From Promethearchaeota archaeon (GTDB taxonomy: Archaea > Asgardarchaeota > Lokiarchaeia > Sigynarchaeales > SOKP01), in contig JAHLWT010000233.1 of the NCBI GenBank assembly GCA_019057775.1, positions 1 to 25,412 on the forward strand: a stretch of DNA of 25,412 nt, given 5' to 3'. Position numbers and translations under genes: made by a program. The notes under the pieces were generated by a model, which worked only from the letters and a program-made list of their open reading frames with translations, made no database searches and was not told the DNA's origin. Shown piece by piece: positions 1,043 to 18,981 of this stretch (position 1 is the first letter of the stretch; every line of letters begins with the position of its first letter).

Positions 1043-2626
1043 TTACATAAAGGCAATAATTACGTTATATTTTTTAATTTCTGATTCTATAAGTGCTTTC
1101 CCTAACGGTGTAAGACTAACAATTTCATTGCTTTTTATTTTCAATGCTGTTAATTTAATATCAGGATCTTTCAATGAAGGCATATAAGGATTCCAATAGA
1201 TTTCCTTGGTCATTGGGTTAGTTATCATCCATAATTCGGGATCTAATTCATATTCTGCTATTTTCATAGCCTCAAAAATATAACCAACATCTGCATCAAA
1301 GGGAACAACGATTTGAATGTTTTCTTCACCTTCAATCTCACCACATGCAAGGCAATCCTCGCGTTTAAGTATTGGTAAGGCATCAAATTGACCATAAACC
1401 CCATTATAATTAACATAGGAGGGATCCATTGGAGGTCCAATGTTTCTTCCTTTTACTCTAAATAAAAGCTTTAGTGCCTCTTGAGATTCAATACTCGAGA
1501 TAATAGAACTAACTGTCTGTATTGCTGCAATCTTGTTCCCTAAAATATTTTCCATTTCCTCAAATTTATAATCTTCTCCGAACGTCTCCCTTATGTTTTT
1601 TTTCCATTCTTCAATTTTTTCTTGAGTAAGAGATTCTCTTTCTTCTGGAGGCACATTCTCATCGAAAACTCTCTCTCTTAACTTATTCAATTCATCTTGA
1701 GCTATCTCTTTTAATTTTAAAACTTCCTCGTTTTTATTTAAATCAGGTTTATGACCATGTCTTTTTTCAAACTCGACTTCTGCTTTTATAACACAATGAT
1801 TACGATTTCGTGGTAAACCTTTCAAAGTACAAGCTGCAATCAACTTATCGTCAGCAGGTGGAATGGGAACTAAACATCTGTAACAAGGGGTTTGATCCAA
1901 AAGCTCAGGAGCAAATTTCCAATCAAATACCATTTCTATTTCTTTTCTGAATTTCTCAACTAAAGGAGTAATTTTTTCTCCTTTTATTCTCTCTATTTCT
2001 GACTCAAGTTCTTCAATTTTTCGTTGTGCTTCAAAATATTCCGGATATTCCATTTCAGTAATATCCCATAGTCTTGTTTCAACTAGATTTTCGATTTCCA
2101 GCTCTCTATTTTTGTATTGTAGACCTGAACCTTCTGGAATTACAATTTGTACATGGCCTTCGAAACCTACTGTTCCCCCTTCAACCATCGGTTTTTTCAT
2201 CCTTAGGCAAATTTTATTTAAATCTAATCGTGCGTTAAAATTGTCAAGAGCAGCTATTACAACATCTGATTCTTCGTAAACCGCCATTGGTAATTTTTGA
2301 AGTTTCTCAAAATAGTAATCTACTATTAAAAATGGATTCATTTCTTTTAATCTTTCAGCAGCAACCTCTGCTTTAGGACGTCCTTCATCTCCAGGCCTGA
2401 AAAGCATTTGTCTTGATAAATTTGAAGTTTCAATTGTATCGAGATCAATTAATATTAGTTTTCTTATCCCCATTAAAGCAAAGTCTTTGCCGATCTCACA
2501 ACCAAGAGCGCCCACGCCTACAATCATGATCGTTCCATTGTTAATCACATCTTGATCCCATCCATCAATTAATTGCTGGCGGGCATACATACGTGATTTT
2601 ACAATATCATCCTTGTTTTCAGTCAT
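1043..2626 (-). CDS. Eukaryote-type E1-like ubiquitin/UBL-activating enzyme
   Basis: A 527-residue ThiF/UBA-family enzyme, expected to adenylate the C-terminus of a ubiquitin-like protein and carry it as a thioester. Visible parts in order are: the ATP loop G37-V-G-A-L-G42; the D61-L-D-T-I-E...SNLSRQ segment (61-73); K85 in GRPKAE; D128-N129; the EGGTVGFEGHV strand (149-159); a roughly 80-residue charged, partly coiled insertion (about 168-245); zinc cysteines C248/C251 (CYRC) and C425/C428 (CLAC); the likely catalytic cysteine C266 in CTLKGLPRNRNHC, matching the Uba1/Uba2-type CT(I/L) motif; the second adenylation helix (365-390); and a C-terminal domain (about 437-527) resembling the ubiquitin-fold domain that recruits E2. 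MoeB/ThiF proteins lack this catalytic-cysteine arrangement. No E2, ubiquitin-like or deubiquitinase gene is in the window. It lies downstream of the giant gene on the same strand but has its own TATA-like box. Confidence 0.88.
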   Translation of the reverse strand: MTENKDDIVKSRMYARQQLIDGWDQDVINNGTIMIVGVGALGCEIGKDFALMGIRKLILIDLDTIETSNLSRQMLFRPGDEGRPKAEVAAERLKEMNPFLIVDYYFEKLQKLPMAVYEESDVVIAALDNFNARLDLNKICLRMKKPMVEGGTVGFEGHVQIVIPEGSGLQYKNRELEIENLVETRLWDITEMEYPEYFEAQRKIEELESEIERIKGEKITPLVEKFRKEIEMVFDWKFAPELLDQTPCYRCLVPIPPADDKLIAACTLKGLPRNRNHCVIKAEVEFEKRHGHKPDLNKNEEVLKLKEIAQDELNKLRERVFDENVPPEERESLTQEKIEEWKKNIRETFGEDYKFEEMENILGNKIAAIQTVSSIISSIESQEALKLLFRVKGRNIGPPMDPSYVNYNGVYGQFDALPILKREDCLACGEIEGEENIQIVVPFDADVGYIFEAMKIAEYELDPELWMITNPMTKEIYWNPYMPSLKDPDIKLTALKIKSNEIVSLTPLGKALIESEIKKYNVIIAFM

Positions 2627-2774: not shown

Positions 2775-5700
2775 TTATTTCTTCTTGTTTTTATCTGCAT
2801 CCTTAATCATTTTCTTAAGATCATTTATTTCTTCTCTCTCTTTGGCTTCTTTTAGTTCATCTATTTTTAATTTCTTTTCCTTTTCTTTTTTTGCGAATTC
2901 ATCATGAAGTTCCTCCTTAAATTTTATTAGTTTCCCCATCTCCTTACGAAATTCTATTGATTCTTTTTTTATTAATTCTTTTTTCTCTTTTTCAGCCGTT
3001 TTTTGCTTTTCCTTCTTTTCTAGGATCATTGACATAACTGTATCAGCTAAATCACTGACTTCTTTTTTAGTTTCTTTTAATTTATTTAATTCTATTTTTC
3101 TACGTTCCTCTTCTAAAATTTTTTGTTCCTCTAGTTGTTTCTGAATTTGCTCAACTCTCTCAGCTTCCTTTTCTACTCTCTGTTCCAATTCTTTTACATT
3201 TTTTATTTCAGTTTCTATATATTTTATTTCAGCATCCCATCCAATTTCTTTAAACTTTAATATTGCCATATTTAGATTTTTATAAGCTCTTGGAAAATCA
3301 TGATATGCCGCGAAATTTTTTCCTTCATCTATTAATCTTAATCCTTCATCTTTAATCTGTTCTATTTGCTGTTTTTTAAGGATTATTTTTCTATATTGTC
3401 TTTCTTGTTCTCGTTTAGTCTTTTCCTGTTCAAATCTTCTTTTCTTTACCTCCTCTTGAAACAATTCATATTCTTTTTGTCTTTCAAACCGTGTTCTTTC
3501 CTCGAGTCTCTTCTTTTCAGCAAAATTTACTTGTTCTTCTTGTAAATCTTTTATTAATATACTTAAATTATTTATTTCTGGCTCCCATCCAATATTTTCT
3601 GCTAAAATATTTCGTGCTTGAATATATAGAGAAATAGCATTATTGTAATCAGGATTGTGTTGTTTTAGATATTTACCTCCTTCCTCTAATAACGAATACG
3701 CTGATTCTCTCGCACTCCTCTGTTCTTGAATTACTTTTTCTCTTTCTTGTAATGCTAATTGCTGGGCTCTCTTCTTCCCTTTCTCTTGTCTTTTTCTTTC
3801 TATTATAAGGCCCTTTAATGCTTTTTCTTCATGCAATTTGTCTAATTTTTTTTGATATTCCAAAAGTTGCGATTCTTCTTTCTGTTTTTTTAAATTCTTG
3901 ATCTTTCTCATTATATTTCTAACAGAATCTGTTGGAAATAGCAGCTCATTCAATATTACCTCAGCTTTTCTATAACTATTTAAAGCATTATCATAATCTG
4001 ATGATTTTAAAAGGTGGTCTGCTTCATCTAAAATCGTAAAAACCTGTTTCTTTCTTTCTTCTAGTTTTAATTTCAATTCTCCTAACTTTTGAATTTCTAA
4101 TTGTTTGTTTGCTAATCTCCTTTTTTCAATTTCTAAACCAGCAACAATATTTTGTTTAATTAAATGTTCTTGTTTTTCTCTTTTTAAACTCTTCTCTAGC
4201 TCCATTTGTTTTTGGAGATAGGATTCTCTTCTTTTCTCTTGAACCTTTATTATCGTTTCTCTGATAGCTTCAGTAGGGAATGAAATTTCATTTAAAATTA
4301 ATTCTGCAGTATGATAATAATCAAGAGTTTTATCATATTGAGCTTGTACCATAAAAACTTCTGCTTCCTCAAGAAGATTAAAAGCTTCTTCTTTTCTTCT
4401 TTCTACATGGATACGATATTCTCTTTGTTTATCAAGTTCAATCTGTCGAGATTTTAATTTCATCTCATTTATTCTTATATTCTGTTTTATTTGTTGTTGG
4501 AATTCGAAATTCTCCTGTTCTTTGCGTAAATTATTCTCTAACTCAATTTGTTTCGACATTAATTCTTCTCTACTTTTATCCTGAACTTTTGATAACATTT
4601 CTCTAACTGCTTGAGTTGGAAAACCTATTTCATTTAAGATAAGTTCTGCATTACGATATTTTTCTATAGCTTGATTAAATTGTTTTAAATTCAAGACTTT
4701 TTCTGCCTCATCCATTATTTCAAAAGCTTGTACTTTACGTTTTTCCTTTAATTCCTTTAATTCTTCAAGTTTAGTTATATCGATTTCTTTTGCTTTTAAT
4801 CTATTCTGCTCTCTTATCATATAATCAGAAATTTTCTTTTGAAATTCTACTTCTTCTCTGCCTTGTTGAATCCTAAGGTTATTTTCTTGCTCCTTTTTGC
4901 TCTCAAGTTCTTTCTTTCTGAGTTCAATTGTTTTAATCGTATTTTGAAGTAATCGTAAATAATCAGAAGTCCATCCAATTTCTGTTAATATTTTAGTTCC
5001 ATTTCTATATTTTTCTAATGCTCCGTCATACATTTTTTTGCTTATTAAAATGTATCCCTCTTCAATAAATCTGAATGCATCCTGTTCTTTTGATATATAT
5101 TGAGAGCTAATAATTTCTTGTTTCTCTATTAAATTCCTTTCCTCTATTGCTCTAGCTTTTTCTTCTTCTCTTCTAAGCCTAATTTGTTCCAAGAAAATAA
5201 AGTTTTCTTTCTCTTGTTGGATTGCATCTTGAATTGATTTTTGCTTTATTAAAATCTCTTGTTTCTTCTTCTTTTCTATTTCATTTATAGCCTCTTGAAT
5301 TATGGGGATCTCATCTAACCACTGAATCTGGGCAAAAATATTTGAAACATTAAGATAAATTTCGAGTGCTTCGTCCACTTTATTCTGATTAAGAAATTCT
5401 CGAGCTTGATCTAATAAATTGAAAGATTCCTCTTTCCTTTTCTCACGATAAGCAAGTTCTTGTTCTTGTTCTCTTAATAAAATTTCTTTTTGTGCTAATA
5501 TTTCTCGTTGGACCTTCATGTGCATCAGTATTTCTTCTTGGAATAATTTTTCTTGTTTTTTCTCTTCTAAAGCTGCTTTTAAATCCATTTGTTTTCTTAA
5601 CTCAGACTCTCGCTTTTTATTTTCAACAACCTGAATGGAATCCTTAATTAATTCGACTTCTTGGTCCCACTGAATCTCCTTAAAAATAGTTGCACTTTTT

Positions 5701-8700
5701 TTGTATTGTTCAATAGCTTCATTATACATCTCTGCTTCAATATTCATTTGAGCTTCTTCCAAATTCTTGAATGCTTTTGCTTTTTTCTTTTCTATATGTA
5801 GATTAGCTTCTTCAAGTTGTTTTAATTTTTCTTCCTTTTCTCTCAATTTTTGTTCTTCTAACTGAATTCTCTCCGAAATTTGTTGTCGAAATATTTCTTC
5901 GTTTTGTTCCTTTCTTAACATCACTTCTAATTCTTTGAATTTGTTTAAATCTTCCTCTCTTTTTTTCTCTTGGATCTTATAAATCATCTCTCTAATGATT
6001 CCAGTTGGGAAATTAATTTCATTTAAAATTAACTCTGCTTGTCGATAGTTTTCAAGGGAATCGTCATATTTTCCTTGATTCAATAACGTTTCACCCTTAT
6101 CCATAGAATTAAAAGCTTCTAATCTTTGTTTTTCCATTTGTTGAGTTAAATCTTCCCTCTTTTTTATCTTAATCTCTTTAACTTTTAACCTTGATTTCTC
6201 TCTATCAATATATTTATGTATTTTTTGTTGAAACTGCTCTTCCTCTTTTTGTTTTTTTAAAGCAATTTCAAATTCTAATTTTTTTTCTTTAACACTCTCT
6301 TCCTTTTTCAGTTTTATAGAATTGACAGTTTCTTGTAATAGTAATAAATTACCCTCTCCCCAACCAATTTCTTTTAGAAGCTCAACTGCTTTAAGATATT
6401 CTTCTATAGCTTCATTAAATTTATTAGTTTTTAGTAGGTTATCTCCATTTTCAATCATTTTAATAGCGTTTTGCTCTTTTACTAAATTTTGAGATGAAAT
6501 TTGTTTTCTATTTTCAATTCCAGCTTGTTCATTTAAAATTTCAATTCTTTCTTGTTCCCTATTATATCTTATCTTTTCGAGAAAAGCATGATCACTAGCT
6601 TCTCTTTTTATAGCTCTCTTTAAAATTTCTTGTTTGTATAGCTCATTCTCTCTCTTTCTATTCTTAATCTCATTCATAGCCTCCTGAATGACTGATATTT
6701 CTTCTGTCCATTGGATCTGAGCAAAAATAGTTGAGACGTCGTGATAAAGTTCAAGAACAGCATCAAATTTGCTCTGAGAAAGAAATTCTTGAGCTTTATC
6801 CAATAATTTGAATGCTTCTTCTTTCCGTTTCTCTCGAAAAGTATATTCGTGTCCTTTTTCTCTTATTACAAGCTCTTTTTGTTTTAGATCTTCACGTTGA
6901 GCTAGCATTTCATTCTTAATATATTCTTGGAACATCTTTTCTTGTTTTTCCCGCTCAATTTCTGCTTGGAACTTGATCTGTTTTTGTAATTCAGCTTCAC
7001 GTTTTTTATTTTCAATTTCTATTATCGAGCCTTGAATTAAATTAACTTCATTTTGCCATTCGATATCAGAGAAAAAGTTTATAGCATACTTAAGTATTTC
7101 AACAGCTTTATCAAATTCTTTGATTTTTACATGATCTTGAGCCTCTGCTAATAATTTAAATCCAATTTTCCTCTGTTCTTCTCGATATTTTAATTCTTGT
7201 TCATGTTCTTTTAATTCAATTTCTTTTCTTTTTATTTTATCCTTCTCATGTTGTAAATATTGCGTAATTTCCTTTTGGAATTCCTCTTCTTCTCTTTGTT
7301 TAACAATAGCTTCTTGTAACTTTTTTTGCGATAAGATGTGGTGTTTTTCTTGAAGAACCTCAACTTCCTTAATAGATTTTTCAATAATAGGGATTTCATC
7401 TGTCCATTGAATTTCAGCAAAAATGTTTCCCGCATTTTGATAAGCTGTAATAGCTTCCTCATAATCACCTTGTTTTAAATTATCTGAAGCAGAATCTAAT
7501 AATTTAAAAGCTTCAATTTTCAGTTGTTCAAAGTAACCAATTTTTTCCTCATGATCTTTTAAGACAATCTCTTTTTCTTTTAATCTATTACGTTCTTTCT
7601 TTAAATATGAATCGATCTGCTTATGAAATTCAATTTCCTCCTGTTTTCTCTTCTCTAACTTTGTTTGGGTTTCGTATTGTTGTACTATTTGTTTTTCTTT
7701 AAGTTTTTCTACGTTAAGTATCGTATTTTTAATTGTAGTAGTATAAGTCGCCCATTCTGGACCTAAATCTTCGAGAATTTTTAAACCGTTTTGGTATTCT
7801 TTTATTGCTCCATCATAATTTTTATCTTCTAAAATTCGATCGGCATTTTCTAATATTGAAAAGAACTCTCTTTCCTTTCTAATCTCTCCTTTCCTCTTGT
7901 CTTCATATCTTTCTTTTTTAACTTCTATCTCTTTTGCTGATTGAAAAATTTGCTCTCTTTGCTTCATGTGTATTGAATCTTGAAGAATTTCTAAATCCTT
8001 CTGTCTTTTTTCTTTTAGTTGATCCGCTTTTTCTTCTCTTTTTTGTTTTAACTTTATATCATCTATCAATTTAAGAATTGGTTGAATATAGGAATCCCAT
8101 TCAATTAAAGTGAGAAGTTCAATTGCTTGATTAAAATTATCTAAAGCTTTATCATAATTTTTTTCTCTTTCAAGTCTATTACCAATATCAATTAAATTGA
8201 AAGCTCTGTTTTGTATTTCTTCTTCCTTTTTCTTTTTAACTTTAAATTCACTTAGTTTCTCTTGTTTTATCATTGAATCTGATTCTAGTATATCTCGTTG
8301 CTTTTGTATCTTACCTGATGTATCCTCTATAAGTTCTGATTGACGTTCCTGGAATGCTTCAAATTCTTCTTTTTCTTGAGAGAGTTTTTTAATAATACTA
8401 CGAATGTTTTTTGTTTGGGCTTGCCAACCGATAGAATTTAATAATTCAATTGCACGTTCATAGTTCATAATAGCGGTATCAAAGCTTTTTTCTTTTTCAA
8501 ACATTTTAGCTTTATCAATATGAGCAAACGCTTGGTTTTGTAAATCTTCTTCATGCTTTTTCATAATTCTAAATTGTTCTATGGACTTTGCTTTATCAAC
8601 ACTTGATTTCTCTCCAAAAAATCCAACTACTTGAGGAGTGTCAACTTTTAATTCTATAGTTTCTTTTTTCTGGATTCCCTCTTTTATTAGTTTTTGTTGT

Positions 8701-9134
8701 TCAATTTTATCTTTAAGCATTTTTACTTTAGTCTGCAAGTTCTCTAACTGGGCTTCAGTCCAGCCTGATTGAATTAATATTGTAATAGACGATTTGTATT
8801 GCTCAATCGCATCGTCAAAAAAACCCTCAAATTCTAATTTTTTTGCGCCCTCAAGCAAAGAAAAAGCCTCGTCCTGTAGTTTTTCGACTTCAGATTGAGC
8901 TTGAGCACGTTGAAGTAACTGATCTTGTTTTATATATTTATTTAAAGCATCAATTCTTTCATATATATCACTTAATCGATGCATTAGAAATCCACTTCGT
9001 TTAAGAAAGTCAGCAGCTTTTTGATAATATGAAATTGATTTCTCCAAATCCTTTTCTTCTTCCAATTTTTGGGCAAACTCTAAATACTTTAAAGCTTCTT
9101 TTGCTAAATCTTCTGGGTTTTCCAATTTTAACAA
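2775..9134 (-). CDS. Giant coiled-coil protein with 18 MIT/TPR-like helical hairpins
   Basis: A 2119-residue, highly charged (Lys/Glu/Gln-rich) protein with no signal peptide or membrane segment. It contains 18 copies of a helical hairpin of roughly 50 residues with the pattern AFxLLxxAxxxLxxxxYDxAIxxYxxAxxILxEIxW. The A/F position of each copy falls near residues 14, 90, 202, 311, 424, 542, 658, 774, 890, 1007, 1121, 1237, 1353, 1470, 1584, 1698, 1812 and 1931. The hairpins are joined by roughly 60-residue predicted coiled-coil linkers, and the C-terminal 130 residues are pure coil. The hairpin pattern resembles both single TPR units and MIT domains, and sequence alone does not separate these. 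The start is TTG at 9134, as no ATG or GTG precedes the first hairpin. The length and regular period suggest an elongated scaffold or filament-like cytoplasmic protein (inference). It is divergent from the RACo gene. Confidence 0.85.
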   Translation of the reverse strand: MLKLENPEDLAKEALKYLEFAQKLEEEKDLEKSISYYQKAADFLKRSGFLMHRLSDIYERIDALNKYIKQDQLLQRAQAQSEVEKLQDEAFSLLEGAKKLEFEGFFDDAIEQYKSSITILIQSGWTEAQLENLQTKVKMLKDKIEQQKLIKEGIQKKETIELKVDTPQVVGFFGEKSSVDKAKSIEQFRIMKKHEEDLQNQAFAHIDKAKMFEKEKSFDTAIMNYERAIELLNSIGWQAQTKNIRSIIKKLSQEKEEFEAFQERQSELIEDTSGKIQKQRDILESDSMIKQEKLSEFKVKKKKEEEIQNRAFNLIDIGNRLEREKNYDKALDNFNQAIELLTLIEWDSYIQPILKLIDDIKLKQKREEKADQLKEKRQKDLEILQDSIHMKQREQIFQSAKEIEVKKERYEDKRKGEIRKEREFFSILENADRILEDKNYDGAIKEYQNGLKILEDLGPEWATYTTTIKNTILNVEKLKEKQIVQQYETQTKLEKRKQEEIEFHKQIDSYLKKERNRLKEKEIVLKDHEEKIGYFEQLKIEAFKLLDSASDNLKQGDYEEAITAYQNAGNIFAEIQWTDEIPIIEKSIKEVEVLQEKHHILSQKKLQEAIVKQREEEEFQKEITQYLQHEKDKIKRKEIELKEHEQELKYREEQRKIGFKLLAEAQDHVKIKEFDKAVEILKYAINFFSDIEWQNEVNLIQGSIIEIENKKREAELQKQIKFQAEIEREKQEKMFQEYIKNEMLAQREDLKQKELVIREKGHEYTFREKRKEEAFKLLDKAQEFLSQSKFDAVLELYHDVSTIFAQIQWTEEISVIQEAMNEIKNRKRENELYKQEILKRAIKREASDHAFLEKIRYNREQERIEILNEQAGIENRKQISSQNLVKEQNAIKMIENGDNLLKTNKFNEAIEEYLKAVELLKEIGWGEGNLLLLQETVNSIKLKKEESVKEKKLEFEIALKKQKEEEQFQQKIHKYIDREKSRLKVKEIKIKKREDLTQQMEKQRLEAFNSMDKGETLLNQGKYDDSLENYRQAELILNEINFPTGIIREMIYKIQEKKREEDLNKFKELEVMLRKEQNEEIFRQQISERIQLEEQKLREKEEKLKQLEEANLHIEKKKAKAFKNLEEAQMNIEAEMYNEAIEQYKKSATIFKEIQWDQEVELIKDSIQVVENKKRESELRKQMDLKAALEEKKQEKLFQEEILMHMKVQREILAQKEILLREQEQELAYREKRKEESFNLLDQAREFLNQNKVDEALEIYLNVSNIFAQIQWLDEIPIIQEAINEIEKKKKQEILIKQKSIQDAIQQEKENFIFLEQIRLRREEEKARAIEERNLIEKQEIISSQYISKEQDAFRFIEEGYILISKKMYDGALEKYRNGTKILTEIGWTSDYLRLLQNTIKTIELRKKELESKKEQENNLRIQQGREEVEFQKKISDYMIREQNRLKAKEIDITKLEELKELKEKRKVQAFEIMDEAEKVLNLKQFNQAIEKYRNAELILNEIGFPTQAVREMLSKVQDKSREELMSKQIELENNLRKEQENFEFQQQIKQNIRINEMKLKSRQIELDKQREYRIHVERRKEEAFNLLEEAEVFMVQAQYDKTLDYYHTAELILNEISFPTEAIRETIIKVQEKRRESYLQKQMELEKSLKREKQEHLIKQNIVAGLEIEKRRLANKQLEIQKLGELKLKLEERKKQVFTILDEADHLLKSSDYDNALNSYRKAEVILNELLFPTDSVRNIMRKIKNLKKQKEESQLLEYQKKLDKLHEEKALKGLIIERKRQEKGKKRAQQLALQEREKVIQEQRSARESAYSLLEEGGKYLKQHNPDYNNAISLYIQARNILAENIGWEPEINNLSILIKDLQEEQVNFAEKKRLEERTRFERQKEYELFQEEVKKRRFEQEKTKREQERQYRKIILKKQQIEQIKDEGLRLIDEGKNFAAYHDFPRAYKNLNMAILKFKEIGWDAEIKYIETEIKNVKELEQRVEKEAERVEQIQKQLEEQKILEEERRKIELNKLKETKKEVSDLADTVMSMILEKKEKQKTAEKEKKELIKKESIEFRKEMGKLIKFKEELHDEFAKKEKEKKLKIDELKEAKEREEINDLKKMIKDADKNKKK
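4386..5774 (-). repeat. Higher-order repeat copy B (hairpins 11-14 of the giant protein)
   Basis: Residues 1121-1583 repeat copy A with the same four spacings (116, 116, 117, 114) and the subtype order IQW, IQW, IGW, FPT. Unit 12 matches unit 8 at about 35 of 58 aligned positions by eye, whereas neighbouring units 8 and 9 match at only about a quarter. Linker landmarks such as ENKKRE, QEKxFQE and REKRKEE also recur in register. Confidence 0.75.
5775..7163 (-). repeat. Higher-order repeat copy A (hairpins 7-10 of the giant protein)
   Basis: Residues 658-1120 hold four hairpin-plus-coil units spaced 116, 116, 117 and 114 residues. They correspond one-to-one with the next four units (copy B). 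The order of subtypes is IEW, IQW, IGW, FPT. Confidence 0.75.
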
Positions 9135-11946: not shown

Positions 11947-12471
11947 ATGTCAAGTTTTAAATTAAAAGTATTATTAACGGGTGCGGCTGCTGTTGGGAAG
12001 ACAAGCTTAGTTCAGAGATTCATCAAGAGTCGATTTCAAGCAAACTATAAATTGACAGTGGGAGTTGACATTCTAACTAAAGATGTAGAGTACAGACAGG
12101 GTGAAATTGCGACTCTTTCCATTTGGGACATTGGAGGTCAACAAAGATTTGAATTTATTCGCAGTACATTTTATAAAGGAGCTGCTGGGGCTTTATTAGT
12201 ATTTGACTTGACGAGAGAGCAGACTTATACTGAAACAAGAAAGTGGCTTACTGAGATTCGCCAATTCGCAGGTGAAGGCATCCCTTTTCTATTAATTGGG
12301 AATAAAGCTGATTTAATTGAAGATGTTGGGGAGGTAATTGATAGAGATGAGGCACGCTCATTTGCAGAAGGCGAAGGAAGTATTTATATTGAATCATCTG
12401 CCAAAACGGGCGTGAATGTTGATGAGGCGTTTACTAAATTAGCCCGTCGAATTATTGATTCTAGAACATAA
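11947..12471 (+). CDS. Rab/Ras-like small GTPase
   Basis: A 174-residue stand-alone GTPase of the Ras superfamily, closest in appearance to Rab. G1 is G12-A-A-A-V-G-K18-T19, the switch I threonine is T37, G3 is WD61-I-G-G64-Q65 with the catalytic-type Gln present, G4 is N119-K-A-D122 and G5 is S151-A-K153. Switch II reads DIGGQQRF, with an extra Gly-like look compared with Rab DTAGQERF. The protein ends in DSRT with no C-terminal cysteine, so eukaryote-style prenylation is not possible; membrane targeting, if any, must work differently. It has its own promoter and no adjacent regulator; the nearest Roadblock gene is about 6 kb away. Such GTPases are numerous in Asgard genomes. The partner and process are unknown. 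Confidence 0.92.
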   Translation: MSSFKLKVLLTGAAAVGKTSLVQRFIKSRFQANYKLTVGVDILTKDVEYRQGEIATLSIWDIGGQQRFEFIRSTFYKGAAGALLVFDLTREQTYTETRKWLTEIRQFAGEGIPFLLIGNKADLIEDVGEVIDRDEARSFAEGEGSIYIESSAKTGVNVDEAFTKLARRIIDSRT

Positions 12472-16560: not shown

Positions 16561-18450
16561 CTAATCACTTAAAAGTTTTTCCAGTTCCTTAATTTCGTCA
16601 TCGACTTTCTGTACGATTGCATTTAATTTATCTTTTTTTTCCTGTAGCTCTAGAGAAGTAATTTCGCCCATGAGTTCTTTCATATCAAAATCAATTGATA
16701 TCTTTGAAATATTAGCTTTTTTTATTTTCAATTCTAGTAATGACTGTTTTAGATCGTTATTTAAGGTAGGAAATGGCTCCGATACTTCATCTAGAGATGT
16801 CGTATCCTTCAGTTTTTCTGGTTCTGGTTCTGGTTCTGTTTTAGAGATGGCTTTATGGATTTCTCTCGGCTTGATTTCTTTAGAATTATCTTTTTGCTGC
16901 ATCAATTTTACAGGTGATATTGGTGCAGGGATAATTTTATCATCAACATTCTTTACATGACTAAATGGAGATGTTTTTAATTTATATTTAGCATCCTTAG
17001 GAACAACAGTTACAGTTTTTGGTCTTGCTTTTACAAAAAAATCCTCAGGATTTAGCTTTAATCCAATCTGTTCTTGAGGTGCTTCTGGTTTAATAACTTC
17101 TTCTTGAGTAAGCACCTTTTCCTGAATTATTTTTTCTTCCGTAATAGGTTTTGCTTCTTTAATTTCTACTGGAGTTAAAGGTTCCAGTTTTGTATCTATT
17201 TCCTTAAGTGGTTTGGATGGTGTTGAAACTTCCTGAGTTTTTTGGGTAGGAGGTAACTTAGGGGGAATTAGAGAAGTTTTTGAATCAATTAGAGCTTCCT
17301 CCGTATCTAATGTTTTTACAGGTTCGGGAACTTTCGGTCTATGAAAAAGAGGTGGAATCTCTTTAATTTTCTTTCCTGTAGGTGTCGCTGGTGTAGGAGG
17401 TGGTGCTCCAACTTTTTTCAACATTTCCTTAATCTTCTGTGATTTTTCGTAAAATTCCTTTCCCAGTGAATCGTCTCCTAATTCAAGACATAAATCACTT
17501 ATTTTGTCAAATAAAAATGCTGCTTTGTTGAAGTCAGCAACTTTTAAAGCTTTTACAGCCTCTTCAGTCAATTTATCTCTCTCTAGAAGAGGTTTTAATA
17601 ATGGAGAAACTTCTGCACTCATTTCTAAAATATCTGCAATAATTTGAATCATTTTATCACGATTATTCGGATTTTTTGCAATCATGGAATATGTTTTTAA
17701 ACCTAGAATTTTTTCTATTTGACCTGGCTTCATTGCATTTTTTAAATCTTGTTTGTTTCCAATTACAGCAGTTTGAGCATTAGGTGCTTGTTCTTTTATT
17801 AGTTCTAAGAAATATTTACTTTTTTCAACATTTTCTAATGAAGAATTTGTTATTAAAAGAACCGCATCACTTCCTTTAATAAAATTATTCCACAAATAAC
17901 TAAATTGTTCTTGTCCAGCAAAGTCCCATAAATGGAAATGTAGTTTTCCTATTTTAATTGTAGCTATATCACCTGTAATTGTTGGTATGTGTTGTGTAGG
18001 AATTTCATCAGCTTTTATCAATTTCGTAATTGTGGTTTTGCCGACTCCAGAAAATCCAATTAATGATATCTTAGGTCGAAGATTTCTGTGGATAACATCA
18101 ACAGTAGGATCAAACACATCAAAAGTCTTCGCATCAAATTTATGATCTAAAATTTCTTCAAATAAGTTTAAAAACTCATTTTTACATCTTATTAGTTCCT
18201 TTTTAATGTTTTCAATTTTATCAGTTAAGCTAGCTACAAATAAAAAAATTAGATTTAATTCTTTTACTGTAATATAAGAGACTCGGTATTTATAGAAATC
18301 ATGGAATTCTAATTTACTTTCACTTCCCAACATTACTTCATTGATAATATCGCCAACAAGAAGATCTAAAGCTTCCTGTTTTAAAGCTTTCCCAAAATGT
18401 CTATAATATAGAAGCTCATTATTCCTATAAATAAATACTTGCCTTAAAAT
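16561..18450 (-). CDS. Longin-Arf-like GTPase fusion with hairpin, Pro-rich linker and C-terminal coil
   Basis: A 629-residue protein if translation starts at ATT 18450, or 590 residues from the first in-frame ATG at 18333. Residues 1-102 form a longin-like fold signature (LRQVFIYRNNEL, then ELLYYRHFGKAL, and helices ending near EFLNLFEEIL). The GTPase core follows: G1 GFSGVGKT (132-139), an Arf-like PT in switch I (156-157), G3 WDFAGQ (D176, G179, Q180) and G4 NKQD (232-235); a G5 is less clear. Residues 294-345 form a helical hairpin (AVKALKVADFNKAA...) like those of the giant protein. Residues 346-566 are Pro/Lys/Glu-rich and probably disordered, and 567-629 are coiled coil. Starting at 18333 would cut the longin domain in half, so the upstream start is preferred. 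It sits 33 nt after the Roadblock gene. A role in membrane-linked GTPase signalling is inferred. Confidence 0.75.
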   Translation of the reverse strand: MLRQVFIYRNNELLYYRHFGKALKQEALDLLVGDIINEVMLGSESKLEFHDFYKYRVSYITVKELNLIFLFVASLTDKIENIKKELIRCKNEFLNLFEEILDHKFDAKTFDVFDPTVDVIHRNLRPKISLIGFSGVGKTTITKLIKADEIPTQHIPTITGDIATIKIGKLHFHLWDFAGQEQFSYLWNNFIKGSDAVLLITNSSLENVEKSKYFLELIKEQAPNAQTAVIGNKQDLKNAMKPGQIEKILGLKTYSMIAKNPNNRDKMIQIIADILEMSAEVSPLLKPLLERDKLTEEAVKALKVADFNKAAFLFDKISDLCLELGDDSLGKEFYEKSQKIKEMLKKVGAPPPTPATPTGKKIKEIPPLFHRPKVPEPVKTLDTEEALIDSKTSLIPPKLPPTQKTQEVSTPSKPLKEIDTKLEPLTPVEIKEAKPITEEKIIQEKVLTQEEVIKPEAPQEQIGLKLNPEDFFVKARPKTVTVVPKDAKYKLKTSPFSHVKNVDDKIIPAPISPVKLMQQKDNSKEIKPREIHKAISKTEPEPEPEKLKDTTSLDEVSEPFPTLNNDLKQSLLELKIKKANISKISIDFDMKELMGEITSLELQEKKDKLNAIVQKVDDEIKELEKLLSD

Positions 18451-18483: not shown

Positions 18484-18981
18484 TTATTTCTGTTTAGAAA
18501 TATATTTAACAAGATCTTTTATAATAGCGTACTTCTCCTTTTCAACTTTTTCTCGGTTTAGCGTGCCCTTCATTTTTGATACTTCTTTTGAGAAATCAAA
18601 TATAGAAAATTCTTTGATCTCATCCTCCTTGATGCTTTTACTCAATTTTGTTAAAAACACACTTATACTTGGCATAAATTTAGCCAAGTTAACATTTAAG
18701 TCTAATTTCGAAATCAGTATTAATTCACTGCTAAAAGTAAATATATAATTGTATTCTTGTGCCTCTAATGCAAAAGAATTGATTTTGTTTAAATTTAGTT
18801 CATCAGCAATTTCTTTTAAATTTGAGATTAGTGATAATATCCCTTGAGGAATAACCTTACTTTTAGCAAATTCTTCAATTAACGTCCCTAAGATAATTCC
18901 ATATTTATTAGCAATAGCACATTCAGCATTTAAATCAGACTTTAATTGAGAAATAATTTCTTCATAATTTATTTGTTTCAT
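18484..18981 (-). CDS. Roadblock/LC7-like protein
   Basis: A 165-residue protein whose first 115 residues follow the Roadblock/LC7 pattern. A helix leads into a strand pair around the NKYGIILGTL segment, then a long helix (about 44-62, ISNLKEIADEL), strands around YNYIFTF and LILISKL, and a final helix (about 99-115). The last 50 residues are a charged helical extension. Roadblock proteins such as MglB act as dimers that bind Ras-like GTPases and can stimulate GTP hydrolysis or anchor them. This gene comes first in a run and is followed 33 nt later by the longin-GTPase, so that protein is the likely partner (inference from position). The similarity is at the level of fold pattern, so the call is moderate. 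The start is ATG at 18981. Confidence 0.6.
   Translation of the reverse strand: MKQINYEEIISQLKSDLNAECAIANKYGIILGTLIEEFAKSKVIPQGILSLISNLKEIADELNLNKINSFALEAQEYNYIFTFSSELILISKLDLNVNLAKFMPSISVFLTKLSKSIKEDEIKEFSIFDFSKEVSKMKGTLNREKVEKEKYAIIKDLVKYISKQK

Follow-up and report, generated by a model that had tools for sequence, protein, structure and literature searches.

What a 2119-residue protein made of regularly repeated helical hairpins might do in an Asgard archaeon is the question raised by one gene in the stretch of 25,412 nucleotides analysed here (the window). The open reading frame runs on the minus strand from a TTG start at 9134 to a stop at 2775; a second TTG three codons further in (9125, giving 2116 aa) is the likelier start, because the database copy (P0002) has 2116 aa and the family consensus begins M-Q-N-P-E. 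NCBIfam gave no family match for the protein, a membrane anchor was rejected from its highest 19-residue hydropathy, only 0.77, and a match to the coiled coil of TRIM25 close to the C-terminus (E 3e-4) was taken as an effect of composition.

A profile built from the protein itself detects 18 units with 54–79 bits each, in agreement with the 18 hairpin copies of the original prediction, and three extra matches all lie below 0 bits. The top match is 9.1 bits in 200 whole-protein shuffles (928 weak matches) and 5.7 bits in 200 shuffles confined to 20-residue blocks, on which grounds a chance or low-complexity origin of the repeats was rejected; a profile of the other 17 units recognises each one left out with 29.5–74.1 bits. 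The unit spacings are, in order, 76, 112, 109, 113, 118, 116, 116, 116, 117, 114, 116, 116, 117, 114, 114, 114 and 119 residues, so that 16 of 17 fall between 109 and 119, as had been claimed for most of them, and the first is shorter. Most of these beads are only ~12–24% identical to one another. At a self-offset of 463 aa, units 7–10 match units 11–14 with 40–51% identity unit by unit and with the same internal spacings (116, 116, 117, 114), which, judged from the sequence, is a 463-residue, four-bead duplication within the rod (Table 1). Since the exact spacing survived the duplication, we count it in favour of a fixed-spacing rod.

Table 1 Parts of the rod gene and its downstream neighbour, in window coordinates
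Feature	Position	Strand	Basis or remark
Rod gene, whole, 2119 aa	2775..9134	minus	ORF, database copy, family consensus
Bead 1 (head)	8918..9113	minus	unit profile
Bead 2 (head)	8690..8888	minus	unit profile
PQVVG-F-FG-K motif, linker 2-3, residues 167-178	8601..8636	minus	alignment of 18-unit proteins
Bead 3 (head)	8354..8552	minus	unit profile
Bead 4 (head)	8027..8225	minus	unit profile; next span (to bead 5) 69 instead of 72
Bead 5, rod start	7685..7886	minus	unit profile
Bead 6	7337..7532	minus	unit profile
Bead 7	6986..7184	minus	unit profile
Bead 8	6638..6836	minus	unit profile
Bead 9	6290..6485	minus	unit profile
Bead 10	5948..6137	minus	unit profile
Bead 11	5597..5795	minus	unit profile
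Bead 12	5249..5447	minus	unit profile
Bead 13	4901..5096	minus	unit profile
Bead 14	4559..4745	minus	unit profile
Bead 15	4217..4406	minus	unit profile
Bead 16	3863..4061	minus	unit profile
Bead 17	3527..3710	minus	unit profile; mean entropy 0.75 bit, lowest among 18 beads
Bead 18	3170..3365	minus	unit profile
Four-unit block copy 1, units 7-10, residues 651-1113	5796..7184	minus	463-aa self-offset
Four-unit block copy 2, units 11-14, residues 1114-1576	4407..5795	minus	463-aa self-offset
C-terminal tail, residues 1990-2119	2778..3167	minus	tail profile
Region with mid-spacer F-x-x-x-I/V motifs	3447..7628	minus	sequence and alignment
E1-like (ubiquitin-activating type) gene	1043..2626	minus	directly downstream of rod gene, 148 bp gap

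Across 112 proteins, 1281 of the 1290 rod spans have exactly 72 residues from the third-helix anchor of one bead to the first-helix anchor of the next, and the remaining nine have 69. This count excludes one span near the C-terminus (72 in 60 proteins, 69 in 52); counted from the turn aromatic, the excluded span comes to 78 in the query, a value shared by all spans with that type of turn (units 10, 14, 15 and 16). The 72-residue rule is valid even between units of only 13–20% identity, and the variation in unit spacing sits in the bead turns, not in the rod spacers, which are nearly free of helix breakers (G+P 0.4% on average and at most 1.4% at any column, versus up to 43% in the turns). A second motif, F-x-x-x-I/V, occupies the mid-point of 11 of the 13 rod spacers of the query (F503, 619, 735, 851, 968, 1082, 1198, 1314, 1431, 1545 and 1892), and its F is near-universal for spacers 5–14 and 17 (58–61 of the 61 18-unit proteins, that is the query and 60 relatives 48–89% identical).

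Spacers are almost as conserved as beads (entropy 1.40 vs 1.12 bits); together with the near-universal F and I positions, this is more than a passive spacer needs, and it counts against reading the protein as a tether or ruler. The spacers may or may not follow a heptad pattern: the hydrophobic spectra of 8 of 13 single spacers peak at 3.5–3.55, and because the pooled spectrum has no significant peak, the spacer may be a monomeric helix, a dimeric coiled coil or a partner-bound helix. The classical signature of a single alpha-helix was rejected (E to K at i+4, 45 observed vs 39.1 ± 5.0 expected), though K to E at i+3 is above expectation (63 vs 39.3 ± 4.9). Coupling within spacers is strongest at i+3/i+4, and a fold-back hairpin was rejected, its best antiparallel band (0.55) being matched by 39 of 100 null runs.

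Within the beads, covariation supports an antiparallel hairpin of helices A and B (p 0.0005–0.011, two methods), the best band of which is reached in 4 of 100 runs of a stricter null. Band tests give a mixed picture: mean-field captures 13 of the top 20 pairs (p 0.003) and 14 of the top 30 (p 0.07), and pseudo-likelihood 11 of 20 (p 0.018) and 13 of 30 (p 0.09), or 4 of 15 with tighter bands (p 0.35). The signal for a third helix packing on this hairpin is weak (A-C p 0.015–0.14, B-C p 0.06–0.57). The mean of the top 30 pairs is 1.21 within a bead versus 0.76 between neighbouring beads.

TPRs are 34-residue repeats packed side by side. The beads resemble their hairpin pattern (Pfam TPR_1, TPR_2, TPR_11 and TPR_12), and the 18-bead profile aligns with designed TPRs from the PDB over stretches of 22 residues, but the rod protein has a single hairpin per 109–119 residues. 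A standard TPR superhelix was rejected on this spacing, on the 72-residue rod spans and on the lower covariation between beads than within them. The original prediction of hairpin beads on an extended rod, and not a TPR solenoid, agrees with these data and with the scarcity of helix breakers in the spacers; its ~60 residues of coil after each hairpin are more exactly given, for the rod, as a constant 72 residues from anchor to anchor.

The Asgard origin that had been proposed also holds, since all organism names among the matches listed (in the first listing, the best 120 of 216) are Asgard, and of 45 genome loci, 44 carry Lokiarchaeota or Lokiarchaeia in their titles and one carries 'archaeon'. 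The search for long Asgard homologues suggested with the prediction returned a large family, with 60 relatives of 18 units and others of 4 to 25 (classes of 4, 7, 9, 10, 14, 16, 18, 20, 21 and 25 units), and viral contigs scanned with patterns from a single query gave no match. With filters off, a profile of the C-terminal tail matches 14 listed members from the ten size classes with 48–136 bits (rod control −0.8 bits; 100 shuffles, at most 2.3 bits), including the 20-, 21- and 25-unit proteins missed under default filters, and finds no tail in two distant four-bead proteins among those listed. A 501-aa form (L071) consists of head and tail without the rod, with gene order unchanged. Among the 61 18-unit proteins, alignment gaps are confined to columns 149–167 and 246–293, to column 444 (+1 in 5) and to both ends; linker 2-3 is otherwise indel-rich, but F173 and G174 of its PQVVG-F-FG-K motif are present in all 61. 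Length is strictly kept over ~1,700 residues while identity drifts to ~50%.

As far as sequence can tell, the protein is composed of a four-bead head, whose linkers vary and which holds a short conserved motif, a rod with 72-residue spacing and a conserved C-terminal tail; the ten size classes appear to share the head (beads 1–4) and the tail, and from one lineage to another the protein grows or shrinks by entire rod units. The original prediction did not contain this head-rod-tail layout with quantised length, the exact spacer length or the second repeated motif in mid-spacer.

This architecture of beads, fixed spacers, head and tail is well supported, and for its function we infer a tether or ruler, in which the rod sets the distance between partners bound at head and tail; we give this reading a probability of about one half. 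Each bead would be an MIT-like helical hairpin (helices A and B) with the start of a long helix C packed on top, and helix C would continue unbroken across the spacer to form helix A of the following bead; the bead would act as a splice between consecutive long helices. The rise per unit would be ~10.8 nm (72 × 0.15 nm), adding up to ~140 nm, i.e. ~0.14 micrometre, over 13 rod spans in the 18-bead protein. Because 72 residues make 20.0 turns of a 3.6-residue helix, successive beads might point to about the same side, as might the F-x-x-x-I knobs in mid-spacer. Head and tail would bind two different partners, candidates being membrane, cytoskeletal elements and the E1/ubiquitin apparatus, and rod length would set the distance from one partner to the other. 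More tentatively, the family could be a residue-exact, evolvable Asgard ruler with one-sided beads and knobs, changing in length from lineage to lineage solely by whole steps of 10.8 nm and fixing the distance between two cell structures.

MIT domains are three-helix bundles, with A antiparallel to B and C parallel to A, and bind ESCRT-III tails (MIM motifs). MIT (PF04212) is the top-scoring Pfam profile for the whole rod protein, its 51.1 bits (cut-off 30) summing several stretches, and is among the Pfam matches at E ≤ 1 for 9 of 18 single beads (best E 1.4e-5); the single bead with a full Pfam result gives 17.7 bits, below the cut-off. The likeness would lie in a helical hairpin with a Y-x-x-A...Y-x-x-A core and possibly a third helix, whereas the rod protein repeats its bead 18 times at regular intervals, with helical spacers in between. 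It is conceivable, though rather doubtful, that the beads form a multivalent docking scaffold, with 4 to 25 sites in a row for short helical motifs in the MIT/ESCRT-III manner and with selection acting on how many sites there are and in which order, rather than on length. Beads conserved across relatives yet so divergent from each other would suit separate partners, but their strongest conservation falls on apparent hydrophobic-core positions (A, F, L, A, Y, Y, L, W), inspection of the window ORFs by eye revealed no ESCRT gene (five of them scanned with Pfam), and a docking array does not need residue-exact spacers.

It is unlikely that the protein is a spectrin-like or filament-forming cytoskeletal element, in which the spacer knobs dimerise rods into a lateral in-register network or filament beneath the membrane. 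The near-universal F and I, an exact spacing that permits in-register lateral packing and a band of local coupling at i+8 within the spacer (reached by 0 of 100 null runs) are in its favour, but antiparallel covariation from spacer to spacer is not significant (39 of 100 null runs reach the band; p 0.08–0.28), and short 4-bead forms with similar ends occur. Spectrin repeats are ~106 residues long with a helix continuous between repeats, a modular helical rod of similar repeat length, but the rod protein would have a long bare spacer between beads and a larger rise per unit, and membership was rejected since no Pfam spectrin match appears at E ≤ 0.5.

In 40 of 45 loci an E1-like gene lies 34–1714 bp downstream on the same strand, and in the other five the sequence ends 0–1378 bp past the rod gene. 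The neighbour's product has a ThiF/adenylation fold (Pfam ThiF 187.9 bits) and UBA1 as best PDB matches (E 7.7e-37); its ACTLKGLPRNRNHC aligns at 0.1 bit to the UBA1 CTLK segment, which we take to hold the E1 catalytic cysteine. This gene order, already found beside the 501-aa form, suggests a ubiquitin-system factor whose rod holds E1 or its substrates, which is highly improbable: gene order by itself is weak evidence, the whole neighbourhood is syntenic (divergent upstream gene in 34 of 45 loci), 14 of 40 gaps measure 1605–1714 bp with an inserted gene in 7 of 7 inspected, and a distant relative (L072) has E1 on the opposite strand.

Golgins are long helical tethers between two partners, and they and other long tethers resemble the proposed tether or ruler in general build. 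A study of SMC proteins describes coiled-coil arms with functionally constrained lengths in preferred steps of ~100 residues (PMC5344682); the stepwise, constrained length is shared, but the rod protein has no recognised ATPase head or hinge, and its step is a recognisable bead-plus-spacer unit with a spacer exact to the residue.

Protrusions and an actin-like cytoskeleton have been described in a cultured Asgard archaeon (PMC9834061), but our searches of open-access PMC papers brought up no comparable long structural spacer or tether. The rod family is large and lies in conserved gene order, and its strict length despite sequence drift raises the question of how length is maintained. A tether or ruler predicts length steps of 10.8 nm, partners at both ends and intolerance of insertions other than whole units, and the natural series of 4 to 25 units is a means of asking why a cell needs a given rod length. 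If this reading is true, a ruler in the archaeal relatives of eukaryotes would fix the spacing of two cell structures.

The ORF of the rod gene encodes 2119 residues, with no cysteine and 13 prolines, which are found in or near the bead turns and at the N-terminus, except for P167 in the linker between head beads 2 and 3; none is located mid-spacer in the rod, and no membrane-like segment was detected in the protein. A profile built from its own hairpins identifies 18 units at 54-79 bits, while the best scores in the controls were 9.1 bits (200 shuffles of the whole protein) and 5.7 bits (200 shuffles within 20-residue blocks). Each of the 18 units is also recognised when the profile is made from the remaining 17 only, and the 18 hairpin copies of the original prediction are borne out.

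A protein search with this sequence returned 216 proteins at E<=1e-3, of which the best 120 were listed. All organism names given by the source among the matches listed are Asgard (Promethearchaeota, Lokiarchaeota, and Hermod-, Hod- and Thorarchaeota labels). At least 66 of the 227 genomes in the phylum match at E<=1e-10, and at least 50 at E<=1e-35 (counted from the table), both lower bounds because two candidates were scored per genome, with second copies possible. Scanning genome contigs yielded 45 loci, of which 44 carry the title Lokiarchaeota or Lokiarchaeia and the last just "archaeon"; L014 and L020 are two contigs from one genome. By title or start of abstract, no description of the family was found among the open-access PMC papers listed, and the terms sought in PMC12993045 do not occur there. 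We aligned the query with 60 relatives of 18 units (2108-2127 residues, 48-89% identity to the query), excluding its own database copy, P0002. The alignment of these 61 proteins is just 2130 columns wide, and the unit spacings from unit 6 onward do not differ in any of them. Spacing 5-6 is 118 (119 in six proteins) and spacing 4-5 is 113 (112 in one), with variation at spacings 2-3 and 3-4.

Along the rod the units are spaced by 113 to 119 residues, and despite this the distance between the third-helix anchor of one unit (profile column 52) and the first-helix anchor of the following unit (column 8) is constant. Rod spans were counted in the 112 proteins that have 14, 16, 18, 20, 21 or 25 units and whose first span is 31, setting aside the four opening spans (five where there are 21 or 25 units) and a single span close to the C-terminus. 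Of these 1290 rod spans, 1281 are exactly 72 residues. The remaining nine are 69, all in 20-unit proteins. The span set aside close to the C-terminus measures 72 in 60 of the proteins and 69 in the other 52; one turn aligns two ways there, and direct counting from the turn aromatic of the query gives 78 in all four units sharing that turn type. When all kinds of span are pooled (126 proteins), 1435 of 1974 equal 72, the others including the first span (31), the remaining spans of the head, span 4 (69) and three-column alignment shifts. The 72-residue rule is kept by units with mutual identity down to 13-20%. As helix, 72 residues correspond to 10.8 nm and, with 3.6 residues to the turn, make 20.0 turns. 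The bead direction derived from this value is only suggestive, because by our own arithmetic altering the helix by 0.01 residue per turn shifts the following bead by ~20 degrees.

Covariation pooled over 1412 unit sequences, all distinct and equivalent to 409 effective sequences at 70% identity, supports the antiparallel hairpin of helices A and B by two methods (p 0.0005-0.011) and weakly a parallel contact between A and the putative third helix C (p 0.015-0.14), with no support for a B-C contact (p 0.06-0.57). Cruder band tests gave a mixed picture: with mean-field analysis, the bands take in 13 of the 20 strongest pairs (6.5 expected, p 0.003) but only 14 of the 30 strongest (against 9.7 expected, p 0.07), and with pseudo-likelihood 11/20 (p 0.018) and 13/30 (p 0.09), or 4/15 with tighter bands (p 0.35). 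The spacers contain 0.4% glycine plus proline and display i+3 and i+4 coupling, together with a local i+8 band reached in 0/100 null runs; no significant covariation signal for spacer fold-back was found. Most carry a mid-spacer F-x-x-x-I motif, with F in 58-61 of the 61 proteins for spacers 5-14 and 17 and in 29 for spacer 15, and Leu at this position of spacer 16 in all 24 rows covered. Conservation of spacers is slightly below that of beads (1.40 vs 1.12 bits), of which 17, 15, 7 and 1 are the best conserved.

Units 7-10 and 11-14 of the query form a tandem duplication (offset 463; identity per unit 44, 51, 40 and 46%), which would account for 18 versus 14 units. Other lineages have 9, 10, 16, 20, 21 or 25 units; counts of 6, 11, 12 and 15 also occur, and those inspected are incomplete or possibly so. 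The 9- to 25-unit proteins displayed with the family head and tail have an opening spacing of 75-79 and closing spacings of 114, 114, 118 or 119. P0122-P0125, at 498-501 residues, are four rodless proteins, each with four beads and with both head and tail. A profile of the tail scores 48-136 bits in 14 displayed members from ten size classes, the controls giving -0.8 bits in the query's rod and <=2.3 in 100 shuffles; with default filters the 20-, 21- and 25-unit proteins are missed. L075 (1.2 bits) and L077 (1.9 bits), distant proteins of four beads, show no tail with this profile, and L072 gives just a weak match (10.2 bits), so that these are relatives of the head at most. Distant Asgard genomes hold two nearby genes of four/five beads each (L075 3862-6384, L076 2115-4634, L077 2-1849 (+)), the second being related to the head. 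The L079 ORF (1312 aa, start open) has nine bead-like units, spaced by 116 six times and then by 75 and 75, and is possibly a separate rod protein sharing the 116-residue period.

The next gene downstream of the rod gene, on the same strand, encodes an E1-like ubiquitin-activating enzyme. A gene of this kind lies downstream on the same strand in 40 of the 45 loci; the other five end 0-1378 bp past the rod gene. The intervening gap, approximate since ORFs were read mechanically, is 34-721 bp in 26 loci and 1605-1714 bp in 14. Nine gaps were inspected, seven of them large, of which six contain an opposite-strand gene that we take to be subtilisin-like and one a presumably transposase-like gene. 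A divergent upstream gene, which we assume to be of the DUF4445/RACo type, is present in 34 loci, and three of the 11 loci without it have ~10 kb of upstream sequence. The gene order is old and already exists beside one of the four rodless proteins (L071), but it is common to the whole block and is no proof of joint function.

Coordinates of the rod gene, of genes in rod-E1 gaps and of other genes mentioned
Feature	Locus	Position	Strand	Remark
Rod gene	window	2775-9134	-	
Subtilisin-like protease gene between rod and E1	L018	14940-16475	- (opposite)	presumed identity
Subtilisin-like protease gene between rod and E1	L019	13490-15025	- (opposite)	presumed identity
Subtilisin-like protease gene between rod and E1	L025	10654-12189	- (opposite)	presumed identity
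Subtilisin-like protease gene between rod and E1	L029	18801-20381	- (opposite)	presumed identity
Subtilisin-like protease gene between rod and E1	L033	17051-18595	- (opposite)	presumed identity
Subtilisin-like protease gene between rod and E1	L037	14961-16496	- (opposite)	presumed identity
Ras-family GTPase	window	11947-12471	+	up to 94% identical in relatives
Small GTPase domain (Arf/Roc/Ras, Pfam) with long low-complexity tail	window	16561-18333	-	590 aa; match in 26/57 loci, some overlapping
Protein of no clear family	window	18484-18981	-	165 aa; Pfam CodY E 0.02, under cut-off; match in 21/57 loci, some overlapping
ORF with bead-like units	L079	1-3939	+	

Elsewhere in the window, the Ras-family GTPase is far more conserved than the rod protein, which is just 58% identical in such relatives (e.g., L003).

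Since both ends and the length of the spacers are constant and only the number of rod units varies, as expected for a spacer of functionally important length, the rod protein is probably a tether or ruler. The spacer length is exact to one residue, hinting that rotation is important as well, as though the beads or the F-x-x-x-I knobs had to point to one side. For the arms of SMC proteins, comparable length steps of ~100 residues are described (PMC5344682). The beads look MIT-like and may also dock ESCRT-type tails.
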